Source: Huberarchaeum crystalense [NCBI: Candidatus Huberarchaeum crystalense] (GTDB lineage: Archaea; Huberarchaeota; Huberarchaeia; Huberarchaeales). Taken from it: DNA of 5,486 nucleotides. Under the pieces are notes generated by a model, which was given only the letters and a program-made list of their open reading frames with translations, had not been told where the DNA came from and made no database searches. Within the stretch, counting starts at the first letter, position 1; each line of letters begins with the position of its first letter. The stretch spans positions 601 to 6,086 of the forward strand of contig PFUW01000016.1 of NCBI GenBank assembly GCA_002790315.1. The letters run 5' to 3'. A program made the translations under genes and the position numbers. This document shows, one piece after another, positions 281 through 5,379 of the stretch.

Positions 281-1453
281 ATGAAAAAAATAATCACAAC
301 TGAGAAAATTCCAATTAAAATGTGGTTAGATGAGATTGAAGATGGCGCGCTCCAACAAGCCAAAAATCTTGCAAACCTGGCTTTTGCGTTTCATCACATT
401 GCTTTGATGCCTGATACACATGTTGGTTTTGGCATGCCTATTGGGGGTGTTCTTGCAACAAAAGGTGTTGTTGTTGTTAATGCTGTTGGGGTTGATATTG
501 GCTGCGGAATGTGCGCAGTTAAAACAAGTTTAAATGAGATATCGCGCGAGAAATTGATTTCAATTATGAAACAAATAAGGCAAGCAATTCCTGTTGGATT
601 TAATAAGCACAAAGAAATGCAAGATCTAAACTTTATGCCTAGCGATTATGAAAAACTCAAAATTGTCAAAAAAGAGTTTAACAACGCCAGAAAATCTATT
701 GGAACTTTAGGGGGAGGAAATCACTTTATTGAACTACAAAAAGGGTTAGATGGATATATTTGGATTATGCTTCATTCAGGAAGCAGAAATTTAGGACTAA
801 AAGTTGCAGAACATTATAATAAAATTGCGCGTGAAAAATCATCTGAATTTGGTCAAAAATATGGTAATGTTCCAAAAGAATGGGACTTGGCATTTTTGCC
901 GTTAGACACAGAAGACGGAAAAAACTATATGAATGAAATGAAATATTGTGTTGAATTTGCACTGGCAAACAGAAAATTGATGCTTGACAGAATAAAACAA
1001 ATTCTTAACAAATTGTTCGATGACTCAATTAAATACACAAATTTTATAAATATTGCCCATAATTATGCGTCTCTTGAAACACATTTTGGCAAAAAGGTGA
1101 TGATTCACAGAAAAGGCGCAACACTAGCAAGCAAAGAAACAATAGGAATTATTCCTGGAAATCAGGGAAGTAAAAGTTATATTGTCAAAGGCAAAGGAAA
1201 CAAAGAGAGTTTTGAGTCATGTTCTCATGGAGCAGGACGAATAATGGGTAGAAAAGAGGCAGTAAAAAATTTAGATTTAGAAAAAGAAATAAAAAAACTA
1301 AGGGATTTTGGTGTTATGCACAGCATAAGAAGCAAAGCAGATTTAGAAGAAGCGCCAGGTGCATATAAAAACATTGATGTTGTTATGGAAAATCAAAAAG
1401 ATTTAGTATATGTTTTGGTTGAGCTAACGCCAATAGCTATTATTAAGGGGTAA
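281..1453 (+). CDS. rtcB: RtcB-family RNA ligase, short E. coli-like form
   Basis: 390-residue RNA-splicing ligase that joins 2',3'-cyclic-phosphate (3'-phosphate) and 5'-OH RNA ends using GTP and Mn2+. Family active-site residues are all visible: Asp72 and Cys75 in VGVDIGCGMC, Asn147-His148 in GGGNHFIEL, His165 in MLHSGSR, His260 in NIAHNYA, and His316 in SCSHGAGRIMGR, the position of the guanylylated histidine. The HRKGA segment (276-280), IIPG (290-293) and the terminal Lys-Gly are also family-typical. Length and motifs resemble E. coli RtcB (about 408 aa) more than the roughly 480-residue archaeal tRNA-splicing RtcB. The start at 281 gives the family N-terminus (ITTEKIPIKMW). There is no Shine-Dalgarno and no TATA box at the expected distance, so it is probably translated from an mRNA beginning in the upstream gene. 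In archaea this family ligates tRNA exons; whether this copy is the splicing ligase or a second, repair-type copy cannot be told here. Confidence 0.97.
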   Translation: MKKIITTEKIPIKMWLDEIEDGALQQAKNLANLAFAFHHIALMPDTHVGFGMPIGGVLATKGVVVVNAVGVDIGCGMCAVKTSLNEISREKLISIMKQIRQAIPVGFNKHKEMQDLNFMPSDYEKLKIVKKEFNNARKSIGTLGGGNHFIELQKGLDGYIWIMLHSGSRNLGLKVAEHYNKIAREKSSEFGQKYGNVPKEWDLAFLPLDTEDGKNYMNEMKYCVEFALANRKLMLDRIKQILNKLFDDSIKYTNFINIAHNYASLETHFGKKVMIHRKGATLASKETIGIIPGNQGSKSYIVKGKGNKESFESCSHGAGRIMGRKEAVKNLDLEKEIKKLRDFGVMHSIRSKADLEEAPGAYKNIDVVMENQKDLVYVLVELTPIAIIKG

Positions 1454-1495
1454 TTTAGTAGATAATATGTTGATGAGTGATTTAGTAGATAATAT
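1453..1495. repeat. 16-bp direct repeat (27-bp period) starting at the rtcB stop codon
   Basis: The 16-mer ATTTAGTAGATAATAT occurs at 1453-1468 and again, identically, at 1480-1495, offset by 27 bases. The first copy begins on the last base of the rtcB TAA stop. It looks like a short tandem duplication in the 3' untranslated region. No function is visible. Confidence 0.9.
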
Positions 1496-1524
1496 AATAA
1501 ATATTTAATAACTAATTAACAATC

Positions 1525-1583
1525 TTTGTTTTTTGCGCGCTCTTTTTTAATTTTCATTGATTATTGTTTGTTTTTTGCGCGCT
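1525..1583. repeat. 17-bp direct repeat, 42-bp offset, at the 3' end of the zinc-ribbon gene
   Basis: TTTGTTTTTTGCGCGCT occurs at 1525-1541 and identically at 1567-1583. Read on the minus strand, the second occurrence encodes the RAKNK tail of the zinc-ribbon protein. The first lies in the same frame beyond its stop codon, because 42 is a multiple of three. Confidence 0.9.
1526..1556 (+). terminator. T-rich candidate terminator downstream of rtcB
   Basis: On the plus strand, about 75-100 bases after the rtcB stop, there are T-rich runs (GTTTTTT, then TCTTTTTTAATTTT) with no preceding strong hairpin. Archaeal RNA polymerase commonly terminates at oligo-T runs, so this is a plausible end for the rtcB transcript. 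The same bases overlap the tail duplication of the opposing zinc-ribbon gene, so the T-richness may partly reflect Lys/Asn codons on the other strand. Confidence 0.35.
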
Positions 1584-1809
1584 TTTTCTCAACTTTGTAA
1601 GTTATATATTGTATTTTTTCTCCACATTTTTCGCACACATACACAACAATGTCTTTTCTTGGCAAAGATGTTTTGCCAATATAGCCACAAACACATTTAT
1701 ATTTAACTTGGATTTTGTCTGGCTCTTCTTTTGTTGCCCAAAGCATGCTCTTGGCTTTTTTGTCTGAAGTGCGCGCAAAAAACACCAAATCCTCTTGTTT
1801 TGGAAGCAT
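1561..1809 (-). CDS. small zinc-ribbon protein, 82 aa, function unknown
   Basis: An 82-residue basic protein with four cysteines in a zinc-ribbon arrangement: Cys39-x-Cys41-Gly in YKCVCGY and Cys59-x2-Cys62-Gly in YVCEKCGEKI, separated by 17 residues containing short strands. This is the layout of a small metal-binding beta-ribbon. The C-terminus is Lys/Arg-rich (VEKKRAKNKQ), suggesting nucleic-acid or ribosome binding. I cannot assign it to a named family. It is preferred over the overlapping plus-strand frame because that frame encodes only an aromatic-rich, featureless peptide. The start at 1809 faces rps17e, and a TTTAAA palindrome at 1830-1835 lies about 24 bases upstream, consistent with leaderless expression from a shared divergent promoter. 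The tail is duplicated in frame beyond the stop, where 14 more codons include KKERAKNK. Confidence 0.75.
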   Translation of the reverse strand: MLPKQEDLVFFARTSDKKAKSMLWATKEEPDKIQVKYKCVCGYIGKTSLPRKDIVVYVCEKCGEKIQYITYKVEKKRAKNKQ

Positions 1810-1829
1810 AATTCTCTTTATGATAGGAG

Positions 1830-1837
1830 TTTAAAAA
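1830..1837. promoter_or_regulatory. shared TATA-like element between zinc-ribbon gene and rps17e
   Basis: TTTAAAAA in the 43-bp divergent gap contains the palindrome TTTAAA. Its centre is about 20 bases from the rps17e ATG (1853) and about 24 bases from the zinc-ribbon ATG (1809), near the distance expected between an archaeal TATA box and a leaderless start. The palindrome could in principle serve both directions. Spacing and composition are the only evidence. Confidence 0.45.
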
Positions 1838-1852
1838 GTTGCTAAAAATATT

Positions 1853-2083
1853 ATGGGAAATATCAGAATAAAGCAGATTAAAAAAACTGCGCGCGCACTT
1901 GTGGAAATAGCTGAGAATGAAATGTCTCCTGAATTTGAAAAAAATAAAGATGTTGCAAGCAAGTATTTTGAGTTTTCAAGCAAAAAACAGTGTAATTTAG
2001 TTGTTGGATATGCAACACATTTAAAAAACGCAAAGAAACGCAGAGAAGACAAAGAACTTGAAACCAGAGTTGTGATAAAATAG
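1853..2083 (+). CDS. rps17e: small-subunit ribosomal protein eS17
   Basis: A 76-residue protein matching the eS17 (S17e) family, found in archaea and eukaryotes but not bacteria. It binds 16S rRNA in the 30S subunit. Recognisable family features are the MGNIRIKQIKKTAR N-terminus, the following ALVE, the PEFEKNKDV segment (family: dFe.NK..v), and SSKKQCNLVVGYATHL, the counterpart of SKK.RN.iaGYiT.L. It is slightly longer than typical archaeal eS17 because of a charged tail after residue 58 (KNAKKRREDKELETRVVIK). The start is fixed by the conserved MG.iR. An AGGAG at 1825-1829 is about 23 bases from the ATG, too far to act as a Shine-Dalgarno. It stops at TAG, whereas its neighbours use TAA. 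The Thr-Ala-Arg-Ala stretch is encoded by a GCGCGCGC run. Confidence 0.93.
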   Translation: MGNIRIKQIKKTARALVEIAENEMSPEFEKNKDVASKYFEFSSKKQCNLVVGYATHLKNAKKRREDKELETRVVIK

Positions 2084-2114
2084 TGTGATTTGTGTATATA
2101 TAAAATTAAAAAAT

Positions 2115-2171
2115 ATGAATTTGCGCGCGTTAGACCTGTTGCAAAAACAAAATATAAATTATAGGCTCTAA
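2115..2171 (+). CDS. possible 18-codon micro-ORF
   Basis: In the 97-base gap between the converging rps17e and thrS ends, an ATG at 2115 opens MNLRALDLLQKQNINYRL followed by TAA. A TATA-like TATATATAAAATT lies just upstream (about 2095-2107), but the spacing is shorter than ideal for a leaderless start. Its Arg-Ala pair uses the same GCGCG wording found in the real genes here. No homology is known to me; it may be chance. Confidence 0.15.
   Translation: MNLRALDLLQKQNINYRL
2141..2157 (-). terminator. T-rich candidate terminator downstream of thrS
   Basis: Read on the minus strand, 24-40 bases after the thrS stop, the sequence runs TTTATATTTTGTTTTTGC. It has no hairpin but is T-rich, as expected of archaeal termination; a second T-run follows at about 2105-2113. 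The assignment rests only on composition and position. Confidence 0.3.
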
Positions 2172-2180
2172 AATAAGTTA

Positions 2181-4052
2181 TTACCCTACAAACTTTGGCC
2201 TTTTGCTTATCAACCTCGGCAAAGGCAGCGGCTTAAATGGCCTTTCTTTTGTTTCTTTCTTAATTTTTTTTATTAAATTTGCCACACTCATATTAAATAT
2301 TTTGCCATTGTCTGCGCGCGCCCTTATTTGTAAGGTGCTGTTTTCTCCATCTTCTTGCTCTTTATCACCAACAACAATCTGATACGGCACCCACTCTTGC
2401 TCTGCTTTCATTATTTTTTTCCCAAGTGTAGCATCAGTATCATCAATATCAACACGAATATTTTGCTTTTCAAGTTTATTAGCGAGATTCTCTGCAAATT
2501 TTAGGTGGTTTTCACTGCTAATAGGCAAAATGCGAATCTGAGTTGGTGAAAGCCAAAGTGGAAGAATAGAAATATTTCCTTTTTTTTGCTCTAAATGTGC
2601 TTTTTCAAGTAAAGCGTAAATATTTCTGTCAATTGCTCCAGAAATAGATGCATGAAGCATTATTGGATACTTTTTCTCTCCATCTTTATCTATATAGTTT
2701 ATATCAAATCTTTCGGTATTTTCAACATCTATCTGAACAGTTGAAAGAGCTGATGCTTTATCTGAAGCGTCAATAAAATTAAACTCAAATTTCATCACAA
2801 AGTAAAAAGGGCGCTCGTCCCACATCTCAATAAGTACTGGTTTTTTGATAGTACTAACAAGTTCTTTTGCAAAATCCTCGTTTTGATAATAAAAGTCTTT
2901 AACAAATCTTATTCCTACTTCATAAGGAAGTTCAATATCATTCATCCAATCCATCGATGCTTTGTATTGTAAATAAAACTCTTTTTTTGCTGCATTCATA
3001 TCAGCAACAAGCGTATGCATGTCAGGCATTGTAAATGCGCGCAATCTTTTCAAACCAACAAGTTCGCCTTTTTGCTCTTTTCTAAAAGAATAGTGTGTTA
3101 ATTCATATAATTTTATAGGTAATTGTTTGTATGAAAATACCATATCCTGACTTATTAAATATTGTCCAAAACAAGCAGAAAATCTTAAAAAAAGGTCTTT
3201 ATCTCCTGATTTTACAAGATAATGACGATTAGGGAATCTATTTAAATATTTGTGTAGTTGAGGGTGGGCGAGATCATACATTATTGGTGTTTCAACTTGC
3301 ATTCCCCCTAATTTAAACATTGTGTTGTTAATTTTTTCTTCTAAAAGTCGCTTGATAAGCGAACCCTTTGGATACCATCTCAAATTACCTACATCAGATC
3401 CTGATTCATAGTCAACTAATTCTAATGCGCGCATATATATAACATGGGCAGGAGTTTGAGCATATGTTCTGACTTTTTTGACCTCATAATCTACAAATTT
3501 TTTAAGATTTTCGTGACTAGTGAAATCAAATTCTTCAGCAGGTGTTAATTTTCCATCAACATTTAAAATATACCAATATGATTTTAATTTTTCCTCTGCT
3601 TTTAAAGCAAGGTTTTGCTCTTCCTTATTTTCTTTCTCAACTGTAATTTCTCTGCTAAGCTCAGAAAGAGGATGGCCTTTACATCTTAACTCAAACGCTT
3701 TATAATAACCAAAAGGCGCTTTTTTAACAGGAGCAATTTCTTTGATCTTTTCAACCAAAGCATTCAGAATTTTGTTGCTCGGATAAGCTGGAGCTAAATT
3801 TGAGGATAAATGCGCGTAAGGGTAAATTACAATTTCTTTGGCTTTAACTTGGTTATAAATTGATAATATCTCTTTTGTGGTGTTTTCAACAATCTTTATC
3901 TCATTGAATTCATCGCCTTTTTCAACAGATATAAAAACAACAAGCGCATCTTCTGCATTAAATGGTTGTGCGTCTTGGTCATAGCCAGATTCAAGTGCTT
4001 TTGCTTGTGGTTCAACCTTTATATAATCGCTGTGGATCGTTAGTATGTGCAT
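2181..4052 (-). CDS. thrS: threonyl-tRNA synthetase, archaeal type
   Basis: A 623-residue class II synthetase that charges tRNA-Thr in the cytoplasm, about the usual length for archaeal ThrRS. Residues 1-140 form the archaeal D-aminoacyl-tRNA-deacylase-like editing domain that removes mischarged serine; the start MHILTIHSDYI is typical, and His81 (YAHLSS), Tyr117-Lys118 (GYYKAF) and Glu131 match the positions known to matter in the Pyrococcus domain. The catalytic core follows, with zinc ligands Cys294 (FSACFGQYL), His346 (MPDMHTLV) and His467 (MLHASISG), the motif 2 arginine in SFRKEQKGEL (Arg324), and the motif 3 arginine in GAIDRNIYALLE (Arg476). From about residue 505 (IRILPIS) to the end is the anticodon-binding domain. 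All key residues seem intact. It lies 98 bases downstream of secE on the same strand. A TTTTTAA at 4074-4080, about 25 bases before the ATG, suggests its own leaderless promoter. Confidence 0.98.
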   Translation of the reverse strand: MHILTIHSDYIKVEPQAKALESGYDQDAQPFNAEDALVVFISVEKGDEFNEIKIVENTTKEILSIYNQVKAKEIVIYPYAHLSSNLAPAYPSNKILNALVEKIKEIAPVKKAPFGYYKAFELRCKGHPLSELSREITVEKENKEEQNLALKAEEKLKSYWYILNVDGKLTPAEEFDFTSHENLKKFVDYEVKKVRTYAQTPAHVIYMRALELVDYESGSDVGNLRWYPKGSLIKRLLEEKINNTMFKLGGMQVETPIMYDLAHPQLHKYLNRFPNRHYLVKSGDKDLFLRFSACFGQYLISQDMVFSYKQLPIKLYELTHYSFRKEQKGELVGLKRLRAFTMPDMHTLVADMNAAKKEFYLQYKASMDWMNDIELPYEVGIRFVKDFYYQNEDFAKELVSTIKKPVLIEMWDERPFYFVMKFEFNFIDASDKASALSTVQIDVENTERFDINYIDKDGEKKYPIMLHASISGAIDRNIYALLEKAHLEQKKGNISILPLWLSPTQIRILPISSENHLKFAENLANKLEKQNIRVDIDDTDATLGKKIMKAEQEWVPYQIVVGDKEQEDGENSTLQIRARADNGKIFNMSVANLIKKIKKETKERPFKPLPLPRLISKRPKFVG

Positions 4053-4073
4053 ATATTTTTATATAACTTTTGC

Positions 4074-4080
4074 TTAAAAA
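4074..4080 (-). promoter_or_regulatory. TATA-like box for thrS
   Basis: On the minus strand TTTTTAA is centred about 25 bases upstream of the thrS ATG, the spacing expected for a leaderless archaeal mRNA. A better-looking TTATATAAAA at about 4056-4066 is too close to the ATG to place the transcript start at or before it. Confidence is moderate because the region is AT-rich throughout. Confidence 0.4.
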
Positions 4081-4136
4081 CCAACAAGCACAAACAGAAG
4101 TATAAACAACTTACAAATTTAAATCAAATTTAATTT

Positions 4137-4144
4137 CAAAAAAC
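4137..4144 (-). terminator. oligo-T run just after secE
   Basis: On the minus strand a run of six T (TGTTTTTTG) begins 7 bases after the secE stop codon. It could end the tRNA-secE transcript before thrS, in line with thrS having its own TATA-like box. It is a single short run, so this is tentative. Confidence 0.3.
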
Positions 4145-4150
4145 ATAGTT

Positions 4151-4330
4151 TTATGAAAAAATTACTTTTGCAAACACCCAAATCAACAAAGCTATAACTC
4201 CTACAAGCAAAAACCCAATAAGTGTAACTATCAATGATTGTTTGAGTTCTCCATCAGATGGTTTTTTGAGAATAATTAGGATTCGGTAGCATCGTTCTAA
4301 ATAGTTTTTAATTGCTTGTAAGTTTACCAT
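4151..4330 (-). CDS. secE: preprotein translocase subunit SecE (Sec61 gamma)
   Basis: A 59-residue single-span membrane protein. The N-terminal amphipathic helix carries the SecE/Sec61-gamma signature: AIKNYLERCYRILIILKKP (6-24) followed by SDGELKQS, the counterpart of the family pattern RC.R.l....KP...E. One transmembrane helix follows, about residues 33-54 (LIVTLIGFLLVGVIALLIWVF). Length and layout are those of archaeal SecE, which clamps SecY in the translocon. The start is ATG at 4328-4330 and the stop TAA at 4151-4153. There is no Shine-Dalgarno. The ATG lies 21 bases after the 3' end of the tRNA gene, and the place where a TATA box should lie is GC-rich tRNA sequence. The gene is therefore probably expressed on the tRNA transcript. 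The common archaeal neighbour spt5/nusG is not present here. Confidence 0.9.
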   Translation of the reverse strand: MVNLQAIKNYLERCYRILIILKKPSDGELKQSLIVTLIGFLLVGVIALLIWVFAKVIFS

Positions 4331-4351
4331 AATTTTATTTATTTGGTTGCA

Positions 4352-4549
4352 TGGGCTTGCGGAGACTCGAACTCCGGGCCTCCGGTTTTCTCAGAGCAAG
4401 TACAGCACGAGCTGCACTTATAAAAACTTGCTTGCAAACCAAAGTAAGCAAAGTATGAACCTGCTTACAAACATTGCAAACTAATTCAAGTTTCTTACAG
4501 AAACTTAGTCATATAAGACCGGCGCTCTAACCACCTGAGCTACAAGCCC
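4352..4549 (-). tRNA. tRNA-Ile (anticodon UAU), interrupted by a 124-nt intron
   Basis: On the minus strand the two exons (4549-4512 and 4387-4352) fold into a 74-nt cloverleaf: acceptor GGGCTTG/CAAGCCC with discriminator A73, D stem GCTC/GAGC with loop AGGTGGTTA, anticodon stem CCGGT/ACCGG, variable loop AGGCC, and T stem CGGAG/CTCCG with loop TTCGAGT. No CCA is encoded. The anticodon loop after splicing is C-U-UAU-A-A, so the anticodon is UAU, reading AUA as isoleucine; it lies wholly in the 5' exon and does not depend on the 3' splice site. The body (GGGCUUGUAGCUCAGGUGGUUAGAGCG, A73) resembles tRNA-Ile. The gene is divergent from rps2 (36 bases between starts) and immediately upstream of secE. 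Identity as Ile rests on the anticodon and body; no aminoacylation determinants were tested. Confidence 0.9.
4388..4511 (-). other. tRNA intron with canonical bulge-helix-bulge splice sites (position 37/38)
   Basis: On the minus strand, exon bases C32-U33-U34-A35 (4517-4514) pair with intron bases UGAG (4393-4390) as the 4-bp central helix. Each side has a 3-nt bulge: UA|U at 4513-4511 and AA|A at 4389-4387. The outer helix is the 5-bp anticodon stem. The inner helix pairs GACUAAGU (4510-4503) with ACUUGCUC (4401-4394), giving seven pairs (one G-U) around one C-C mismatch. This is the substrate of archaeal tRNA-splicing endonuclease, with cleavage at 4512/4511 and 4388/4387. The intron is long for a tRNA and internally structured: AAGTTTC/GAAACTT (4488-4494, 4500-4506), GTAAGCA/TGCTTAC (4444-4450, 4462-4468) and a 9-bp stem with loop ACGA (4398-4419). 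The first and last share bases with the inner helix, so they are alternatives to it. Confidence 0.88.
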
Positions 4550-4555
4550 ATAAAA

Positions 4556-4565
4556 TTTTTAATAT
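4556..4565 (+). promoter_or_regulatory. TATA-like box for rps2
   Basis: TTTTTAATAT is centred about 25 bases before the rps2 ATG at 4586, matching leaderless archaeal promoter geometry. It sits in the 36-base gap shared with the divergent tRNA gene, so the two promoters must overlap or nearly so. The tRNA's own TATA box is not clear. Confidence 0.45.
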
Positions 4566-4585
4566 GAAATCAATACAAAAAGATT

Positions 4586-5215
4586 ATGTCTAAAACAGAA
4601 ATTGTACAAAAAGAACTAGCCAAAACTCCTTTTTATGAAAAAAAAGATAAACCAAAACCAATGAATATTGAAGAAGCGCGCGTAGAAATTGACAAGCAAA
4701 TATTTGAAAAGCAGTCGGGCTATATGAAAAGCCGCGCACTTTATTCGCATGGTAAAATTTGGAAAAGTTATAAAGAGTTTGCATATGTTGGATCAAAAAT
4801 AGGAAAAATTCTTGATCTGACAAAAATAGATAATAAAATTAAAAACATAGCAAAAATGCTTAAAAATTATAAAGATCAGAAAATAATACTTTTTTCAAAA
4901 AATCCAAATGATATGTCTATACAGCAATTAGCCGAAATTCTTGGATGTGATATTAAGTCATCTTACAGCGCAGGTAATCTTACAAACACAAATGTAAAGG
5001 ATTTTTTAGATATAGATTTAATTTTTATGTTTGACTTTTACTCTGACTATCTTATTAAAGATGCGATTCAGCTTGGATTACCTATTATTGCATTAGTAGA
5101 ACCAAGCAATGAGGAATCAAAAGGTATAACTTTGTTTTTACCTTGCAACAAATATTTCAGACCTGCGCGCGCATTTATCGCCAAACAAATAGCAACTTAT
5201 TATTTAGAAAGCTAA
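4586..5215 (+). CDS. rps2: small-subunit ribosomal protein uS2, divergent
   Basis: A 209-residue uS2 (S2/SA) homologue, a 30S protein of the head-body junction. The match is clearest from about residue 74: KILDLTKIDNKI (family: lyvLDv.KTderI), YKDQKIILFSKN, the GNLTN box at 130-134 (family GtlTNp), the strand DIDLIFMFD (142-150; family pDvllvtDpr), KDAIQLGLPIIALVEPSN (158-175) and the C-terminal LFLPCNKYFRPARAFIAKQIATYYL. The usual N-terminal AAGVHIGTQ and RpDGlYvLD region is hardly recognisable; residues 46-73 (YMKSRALYSHGKIWKSYKEF...) occupy its place after a charged 45-residue lead. The start at 4586 is the first ATG and has a TATA-like box at leaderless distance and no Shine-Dalgarno. The last seven residues and the stop lie in a 44-bp tandem repeat. 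An internal ATG at 4661 (residue 26) is a possible alternative start. Confidence 0.88.
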   Translation: MSKTEIVQKELAKTPFYEKKDKPKPMNIEEARVEIDKQIFEKQSGYMKSRALYSHGKIWKSYKEFAYVGSKIGKILDLTKIDNKIKNIAKMLKNYKDQKIILFSKNPNDMSIQQLAEILGCDIKSSYSAGNLTNTNVKDFLDIDLIFMFDFYSDYLIKDAIQLGLPIIALVEPSNEESKGITLFLPCNKYFRPARAFIAKQIATYYLES

Positions 5216-5297
5216 ATATTTCCATTAAAGAGATAACAACTTATTATTTAGAAAGCTAAATATTTCCATTAAAGAGATAGCAACTTATTATTTAGAA
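5191..5297. repeat. 44-bp tandem repeat, 2.4 copies, covering the rps2 3' end
   Basis: Copies begin at 5191, 5235 and 5279. Copies 1 and 2 differ only at the second base (AGCAAC versus AACAAC). Copy 3 matches for 19 bases (AGCAACTTATTATTTAGAA) and then diverges into unique sequence. Copy 1 contains the last codons and stop of rps2 (ATYYLES-stop). In their own frames, copies 2 and 3 also read TTYYLES-stop and ATYYLEA-stop. There are no unique spacers between copies, so it is not a CRISPR array. Near identity suggests recent slippage or unequal exchange. Confidence 0.95.
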
Positions 5298-5379
5298 GCA
5301 TAATCTATATAAATAAAATAATAAAATATAAATAAAATAAATTTTAAAATCTTAGAATTTGTTGTGCATATATCTTAAA
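5298..5379. other. AT-rich low-complexity spacer between converging genes
   Basis: About 80 bases of nearly pure A/T with repeated ATAAA/AATAA words (about 5307-5343), between the rps2 repeat array and the end of the minus-strand gene. Read on the minus strand it is T-rich downstream of that gene's stop, so it may serve as its terminator. I see no coding potential or RNA structure. Confidence 0.5.

Follow-up and report, generated by a model that had tools for sequence, protein, structure and literature searches.

What keeps a palindrome made only of G and C at about one copy per kilobase in AT-rich archaeal DNA? The question is raised by a stretch of Candidatus Huberarchaeum crystalense contig PFUW01000016.1 (5,486 nt, hereafter the window), which encodes, by product, RtcB, an S17e-like protein, an archaeal-type threonyl-tRNA synthetase (ThrRS) and ribosomal protein S2, and in which the hexamer GCGCGC recurs. 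The first-pass annotation of this DNA had listed eleven GCGCGC positions and four near-matches, and a recount recovered all of them (Table 1). There are 14 matches when overlaps are counted and 11 clusters, because the clusters at 1889, 2314 and 5165 are each an occurrence of GCGCGCGC holding two overlapping matches. In 200 dinucleotide shuffles of the window, GCGCGC appeared 0.24 times on average and at most twice. With a probability of about one half, we interpret GCGCGC as a highly iterated palindrome (HIP) maintained near one copy per kilobase by a drive that operates on the DNA itself and recognizes no fewer than five to six bases.

The window belongs to an archaeal metagenome-assembled genome totalling 499,820 bases over 74 contigs (completeness about 75%, contamination 0.07%), which contains 485 GCGCGC sites in all (0.97 per kb, or 970 per Mb) and 186 CGCGCG sites. 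Twenty stretches of this genome were sampled (160,337 bases, 154.6 kb of them unmasked, 31% GC; contigs L021, L029 and L030 were wholly masked and L028 partly), and these hold 164 GCGCGC sites against 4.75 under a first-order Markov (dinucleotide) expectation, a 34.6-fold excess. The alternative raised by the first-pass annotation, that of an outlying window in a genome close to Markov expectation, is thus contradicted by the genome-wide counts. The window is also denser than its own genome: the sampled density predicts 5.0 clusters, and it has 11 (Poisson P of about 0.014).

The excess persists when protein sequences and codon usage are held constant. Genes were called as simple, uncurated open reading frames (ORFs) of at least 90 codons, and a codon shuffle that leaves each protein and the pooled codon usage unchanged was applied to 135 of the 143 ORFs (126.4 kb), the eight with masked bases being omitted. 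GCGCGC occurs 142 times in these ORFs against 10.8 in the shuffle (13-fold; z 38.6, the highest of all hexamers), its ratio is also the highest among hexamers with at least 10 occurrences, and a repeat of the shuffle gave 14.1-fold and rank 1 of 2069. In the sampled non-coding DNA it is again the top hexamer, with 22 occurrences against 0.33; its density per kilobase is 1.04 within ORFs and 0.94 outside them, and it is distributed 46/38/59 over the three reading frames. The dipeptide Ala-Arg is spelled GCGCGC in 46 of 96 cases, with CGC making up 23% of Arg codons and GCG 13% of Ala codons overall, and Arg is spelled CGC in 48% of cases when a G precedes the codon and in 7% when an A does. The presence of GCGCGC thus does not depend on reading frame, on codon usage or on whether the DNA is coding.

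We then expressed the signal as occupancy, the share of places in the sampled genes where the protein permits a word that actually carry it. GCGCGC occupies 142 of 314 such places (45%). Control palindromes of G and C reach 0–2%, with 1/248 for GGCGCC, 2/253 for GCCGGC, 5/243 for CCGCGG, 3/248 for CGGCCG and 0/169 for GGGCCC (CCCGGG is the one G/C-only hexamer palindrome left out of this count), and TGCGCA occupies 32 of 238. Three of the 23 genes with at least five permitted places use the word at none of them (Table 1); they may be recent arrivals, and their number is about what chance could give. We also observed that a giant Cys-rich surface-type protein of 2297 aa, open at the contig end (L031:1-6894), carries GCGCGC at two of five permitted places, the word being sparse there because the protein offers few Ala-Arg places.

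Codon usage, amino-acid composition and dinucleotide slippage are accordingly refuted as causes. Arg-Ala and, less so, Ala-Arg are somewhat over-used (112 against 72.0, standard deviation 8.4, and 94 against 72.7, standard deviation 9.5, respectively), and the former suggests that GCGCGC may be leaking into protein sequence. The 13-fold excess under the codon shuffle and the equal density outside genes rule out codon and amino-acid bias, and slippage is ruled out by the other alternating hexamers (ACACAC, AGAGAG, ATATAT and their shifts and complements), which range from 0.62- to 1.71-fold, and by the absence of gaps at the sites in the ThrRS gene. The latter were compared with six loci of relatives, of which the top two are from Altiarchaeota (61 and 60% identity). 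Alignment at all three ThrRS sites is gap-free, and none of the six relatives has GCGCGC at any of them. The R-A-R-A residues at 2314 are mostly not common to the six relatives, at 3037 the R is present in all six and the A in five, and at 3427 M-R-A is found in two. GCGCGC therefore arose here via substitutions inside a fixed reading frame.

Maximal alternating runs in the ORFs, compared with the codon shuffle, delimit the recognized unit. GCGC stands at 1.02-fold, CGCG at 0.51-fold and CGCGC at 2.5-fold, and the longer runs CGCGCG, GCGCGC and GCGCGCGC rise to 5.0-, 11.9- and 33-fold. Because isolated GCGC is at expectation and longer runs are enriched, the unit appears to be an alternating GC run of five to six bases or more, and the G-initial form is preferred; since isolated tetramers are not enriched, a plain effect of GCGC, CGCG or CpG is ruled out. 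Coding near-misses with the deviation at positions 1/6, 2/5 and 3/4 number 162 against 50.1, 122 against 48.4 and 65 against 44.8, respectively. TCGCGA is depleted (0.29-fold under the codon shuffle). As a separate observation, the same shuffle shows depletion of AACGTT (0.11-fold), TCTAGA (0.13-fold), ACCGGT (0.17-fold) and TTCGAA (0.24-fold), and GGCGCC was seen once; restriction avoidance may have left these traces.

The 60 relatives considered are related to this genome at the level of domain only, and a search by phylum returned no second genome. Whole-genome counts were normalized for 40 archaeal genomes (a 41st, G001, was dropped because its stretch was masked) as counts over rounded genome sizes divided by expectations from stretches of 3 to 155 kb, which makes single ratios approximate where a genome's stretches are short. 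The Huberarchaeum genome (G000) ranks highest of the 40 at 31.6-fold, followed by G011 (6.2-fold), G030 (5.8-fold), G008 (4.5-fold) and G061 (3.9-fold), and 24 genomes lie at or below 1.5-fold. Under the codon shuffle, GCGCGC ranks first in G030 (5.7-fold), second in G011 (5.1-fold, behind CGGCCG) and first in G016 (2.8-fold, with only 11 sites), and is not outstanding in G006, G019 or G012. The trend toward stronger enrichment of longer runs recurs, more weakly, in G011 and G030, and within the order of G030 the number of sites varies from 4 to 711 across 11 genomes.

Ca. Huberarchaeum crystalense has been described as a putative symbiont of Altiarchaeum with a genome of about 0.5 Mb, a fragmented assembly and large Cys-rich surface proteins, eleven genomes of it being reported (PMC6792436). 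The genome carrying GCGCGC fits this account in its size, its fragmentation and the giant Cys-rich protein of L031, and probably belongs to a Huberarchaeota-like symbiont, probably an obligate one. Of two Altiarchaeota genomes, one (1.4 Mb) contains 487 sites and the other (1.2 Mb) 18, approximately 0.7- and 0.6-fold the first-order expectation (from one locus each). A signal held in common with a possible host was therefore set aside on the basis of these two unenriched genomes, which do not include the Altiarchaeum accompanying Huberarchaeum.

The closest parallel is provided by the HIPs of cyanobacteria. HIP1 is GCGATCGC, and alternate cyanobacterial HIPs (GGCGCC, GCsGC, rCCGGy) occur at about 500–2500 per Mb; single-base deviations from HIP1 concentrate at its end bases, and the model proposed for these motifs combines a cytosine methyltransferase with GmeC-directed mismatch repair (Elhai 2015, PMC4390886). 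MutS/MutL repair is a requirement of this model and does not enter into what defines a HIP. Like HIPs, GCGCGC is a GC-rich palindrome found about once per kilobase, within their range of densities, it is an outlier among all words of its length that codon use does not explain, its clusters are randomly spaced, and its near-misses gather at the first and last positions. It is not HIP1 proper, as GCGATCGC occurs once in the 154.6 kb sampled, and it differs from the cyanobacterial HIPs in its archaeal host, in its word and in the absence of any match to a cytosine methyltransferase or MutS in the 75%-complete assembly. Some HIP1-rich genomes have no CGATCG methyltransferase (PMC4390886). Moreover, obligate cyanobacterial symbionts have mostly low HIP1 (PMC4390886), unlike the high GCGCGC of this probable obligate symbiont.

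Taken together, these data suggest that GCGCGC is maintained by a HIP-type process, most likely repair linked to modification or to recombination. A DNA-binding protein recognizing GCGCGC would bias the outcome for mutations or heteroduplexes in favour of the intact palindrome, with the intact strand, modified or bound, serving as repair template. A version linked to cytosine modification seems to us slightly more likely than biased repair or gene conversion in which no modification takes part, and both would precede uptake, nucleoid binding and neutral mutation in our order of preference. Read as a balance with mutation, the 13-fold excess would correspond to a scaled bias of roughly ln 13 = 2.6. 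More tentatively, a partner-supplied or wholly new DNA-recognition system may be remodelling a reduced symbiont genome and pushing GCGCGC toward saturation with neither a conventional cytosine methyltransferase nor MutS/NucS repair. This would constitute an independent archaeal HIP produced by a different mechanism, and at least two other archaeal families would then carry weaker forms of it.

Several results weigh against a palindrome-specific drive of this kind. Given the 5-mer counts, a maximal-order Markov model yields an observed-to-expected ratio of 1.01 for GCGCGC; the enrichment is therefore already present in CGCGC and GCGCG, the hexamer is not in excess over its own 5-mers, and the edge of the recognized word (five, six or more bases) is soft. 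In agreement with this, GCGCGCGC is enriched even above GCGCGC, and CGCGCG occupies 54 of 286 permitted places (19%), partly via overlap. Near-misses comprise 133 transitions against 61.2 and 216 transversions against 82.1; with no transition excess, they bear no footprint of 5-methylcytosine deamination. Finally, family searches of the 75%-complete assembly yielded no agent for GCGCGC. Profiles that work on control genomes gave no match in it for the cytosine-methyltransferase families PF00145 and PF01555, for MutS_V (MutL was not searched for) or for NucS_C, an alternative to MutS/MutL, and PF00145 was also without match in G011 (98% complete) and G030 (92%). Only one methyltransferase turned up, a D12-class enzyme with an N-terminal helix-turn-helix domain (Table 1). 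It was set aside as the agent because that family takes its name from adenine methylation and no adenine occurs in GCGCGC. Separately, two ORFs without Pfam match follow this gene and could be a broken partner, and GATC occurs 205 times in the 154.6 kb sampled, about half of the base-composition expectation (445); the enzyme and this shortage together make a GATC-type restriction system possible.

One competing explanation is the exact mechanism proposed by Elhai, in which a GCGCGC- or GCGC-specific cytosine methyltransferase and GmeC-directed MutS/MutL repair ratchet near-misses into the palindrome. Density, palindromy, the GC content of the word and the end-biased near-misses all match it (PMC4390886). 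The enzyme could sit in the missing quarter of the genome, or act from a partner cell, as methylation across cells, from symbiont to host, has been inferred in a consortium of DPANN archaea and Haloferax (PMC11001535). That study shows that methylation can cross cells in such partnerships; it concerns other motifs, its main text does not mention GCGC, its abstract and outline report no word overrepresentation, and its inferred direction is from symbiont to host. Set against these points, the unmatched families, including PF00145 in the enriched G011 and G030, the lack of enrichment of isolated GCGC and CGCG, and the near-misses without transition excess make this exact mechanism doubtful. Self-recognition in uptake or exchange, whereby cells would favour DNA bearing GCGCGC for uptake or recombination and so accumulate the word, would account for some of the same features: the word lies in genes and between them, in all frames, at random spacing and about once per kilobase, and its overrepresentation fades gradually with mismatches, as it does for the single short words overrepresented genome-wide as uptake sequences in Pasteurellaceae and Neisseriaceae (Bakkali 2007, PMC1939737). 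GCGCGC differs from these in being palindromic and only six bases long. The low occupancy seen in three genes or segments, whose products are of surface type or other kinds, counts in favour of this explanation, but such genes are few and, as noted above, near chance level. Known uptake words are longer and non-palindromic, and we regard this explanation as unlikely.

We consider two further explanations improbable. If selection retained GCGCGC as a site at which nucleoid, histone or segregation proteins bind or exert an architectural role, a fixed short palindrome at high density would fit, and two histone-fold genes are present (L104 and L105, on contigs C3 and C63), although such genes are ordinary in archaea. 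No regular spacing of GCGCGC clusters was found in the sampled stretches, where the coefficient of variation is 0.94 (random range 0.86–1.25), so that an architectural mark at regular intervals is disfavoured, and near-saturation of the permitted coding places exceeds the need of a binding mark. Neutral context-dependent mutation or damage, in which alternating (GC)3 is unusually stable or a mutational sink and no protein recognizes it, is consistent with enrichment that climbs with alternating-run length and extends to CGCGCG, and the weaker trend in G011 and G030 makes a shared biochemical cause possible. This explanation is opposed by the flat isolated GCGC, by the deficits of CGCG and TCGCGA, and by the other normalized archaeal genomes, 38 of 39 of which fall below 6.2-fold and 24 at or below 1.5-fold; mutation spectra that require five or six fixed neighbours are, moreover, not usual. 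The first-pass annotation's interpretation is thus partly supported: a genome-wide, sequence-specific signal at the level of DNA holds, and the options named there (a methylation or protein-binding mark, a nucleoid or segregation signal, an uptake-type sequence or a mutational product) are still candidates.

Other features of the window were noted by eye. On the minus strand at 4355-4551, roughly 110 inserted bases, probably an intron, appear to split a tRNA-like gene; ARAGORN called no tRNA anywhere in the window. At 5182-5300, an AT-rich unit roughly 50 bases long is repeated in tandem, from the 3' end of the S2 gene past its stop. At 1522-1600, TTTGTTTTTTGCGCGCT is followed by T-rich DNA both at the 3' end of the small ORF 1561-1809 and just beyond it, a pair that resembles a short duplication. 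A search of a plasmid collection with the window returned no match.

Table 1. Coordinates of GCGCGC sites and near-matches in the window, of sampled genes with no occupied place, and of the methyltransferase gene
Feature	Location	Gene or setting	Details
GCGCGC	345..350	RtcB gene	GGC GCG CTC, G-A-L
GCGCGC	1535..1540	intergenic	T runs on flanks
GCGCGC	1577..1582	small ORF 1561-1809 (minus)	K-R-A
GCGCGC	1771..1776	small ORF 1561-1809 (minus)	A-R
GCGCGCGC	1889..1896	S17e-like gene	two overlapping matches; A-R-A
GCGCGCG	2123..2129	intergenic	
GCGCGCGC	2314..2321	ThrRS gene	two overlapping matches; G/C run continues to 2323; R-A-R-A
GCGCGC	3037..3042	ThrRS gene	L-R-A
GCGCGC	3427..3432	ThrRS gene	M-R-A
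GCGCGCG	4676..4682	ribosomal protein S2 gene	A-R-V
GCGCGCGC	5165..5172	ribosomal protein S2 gene	two overlapping matches; A-R-A
Near-match CGCGCG	543..548	RtcB gene	S-R-E
Near-match GCGCG	827..831	RtcB gene	
Near-match GCGCG	3812..3816	ThrRS gene	
Near-match CGCGC	4733..4737	ribosomal protein S2 gene	
Zero-occupancy gene	L034:2445-5768	NosD/beta-helix protein	0/5 permitted places
Zero-occupancy gene	L023:1910-3379	Cys-rich protein without Pfam match	0/6 permitted places
Zero-occupancy gene	L035:15731-16066	YbjQ-type protein	0/6 permitted places
D12-class DNA methyltransferase	L042:1387-2490	contig C68, minus strand	N-terminal helix-turn-helix domain

The strength of the GCGCGC signal is real and unusual, and a HIP-like motif is a kind of signal already known from cyanobacteria. 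GCGCGC represents a new form of it because the lineage, the word and the apparent lack of the proposed machinery differ, and a literature search by titles and abstract openings returned no report of GCGCGC overrepresentation in archaea. The origin and purpose of HIPs are still open, and in the case described, that of cyanobacteria, methyltransferases and mismatch repair are involved (PMC4390886). A half-megabase archaeal genome with an equally strong palindrome and no detected cytosine methyltransferase, MutS or NucS would uncouple the motif from that machinery and, since its gene list is small, the agent could be singled out by elimination. In such lineages, GCGCGC would also serve as a tag present throughout the genome, with which contigs can be binned and recently acquired genes recognized.

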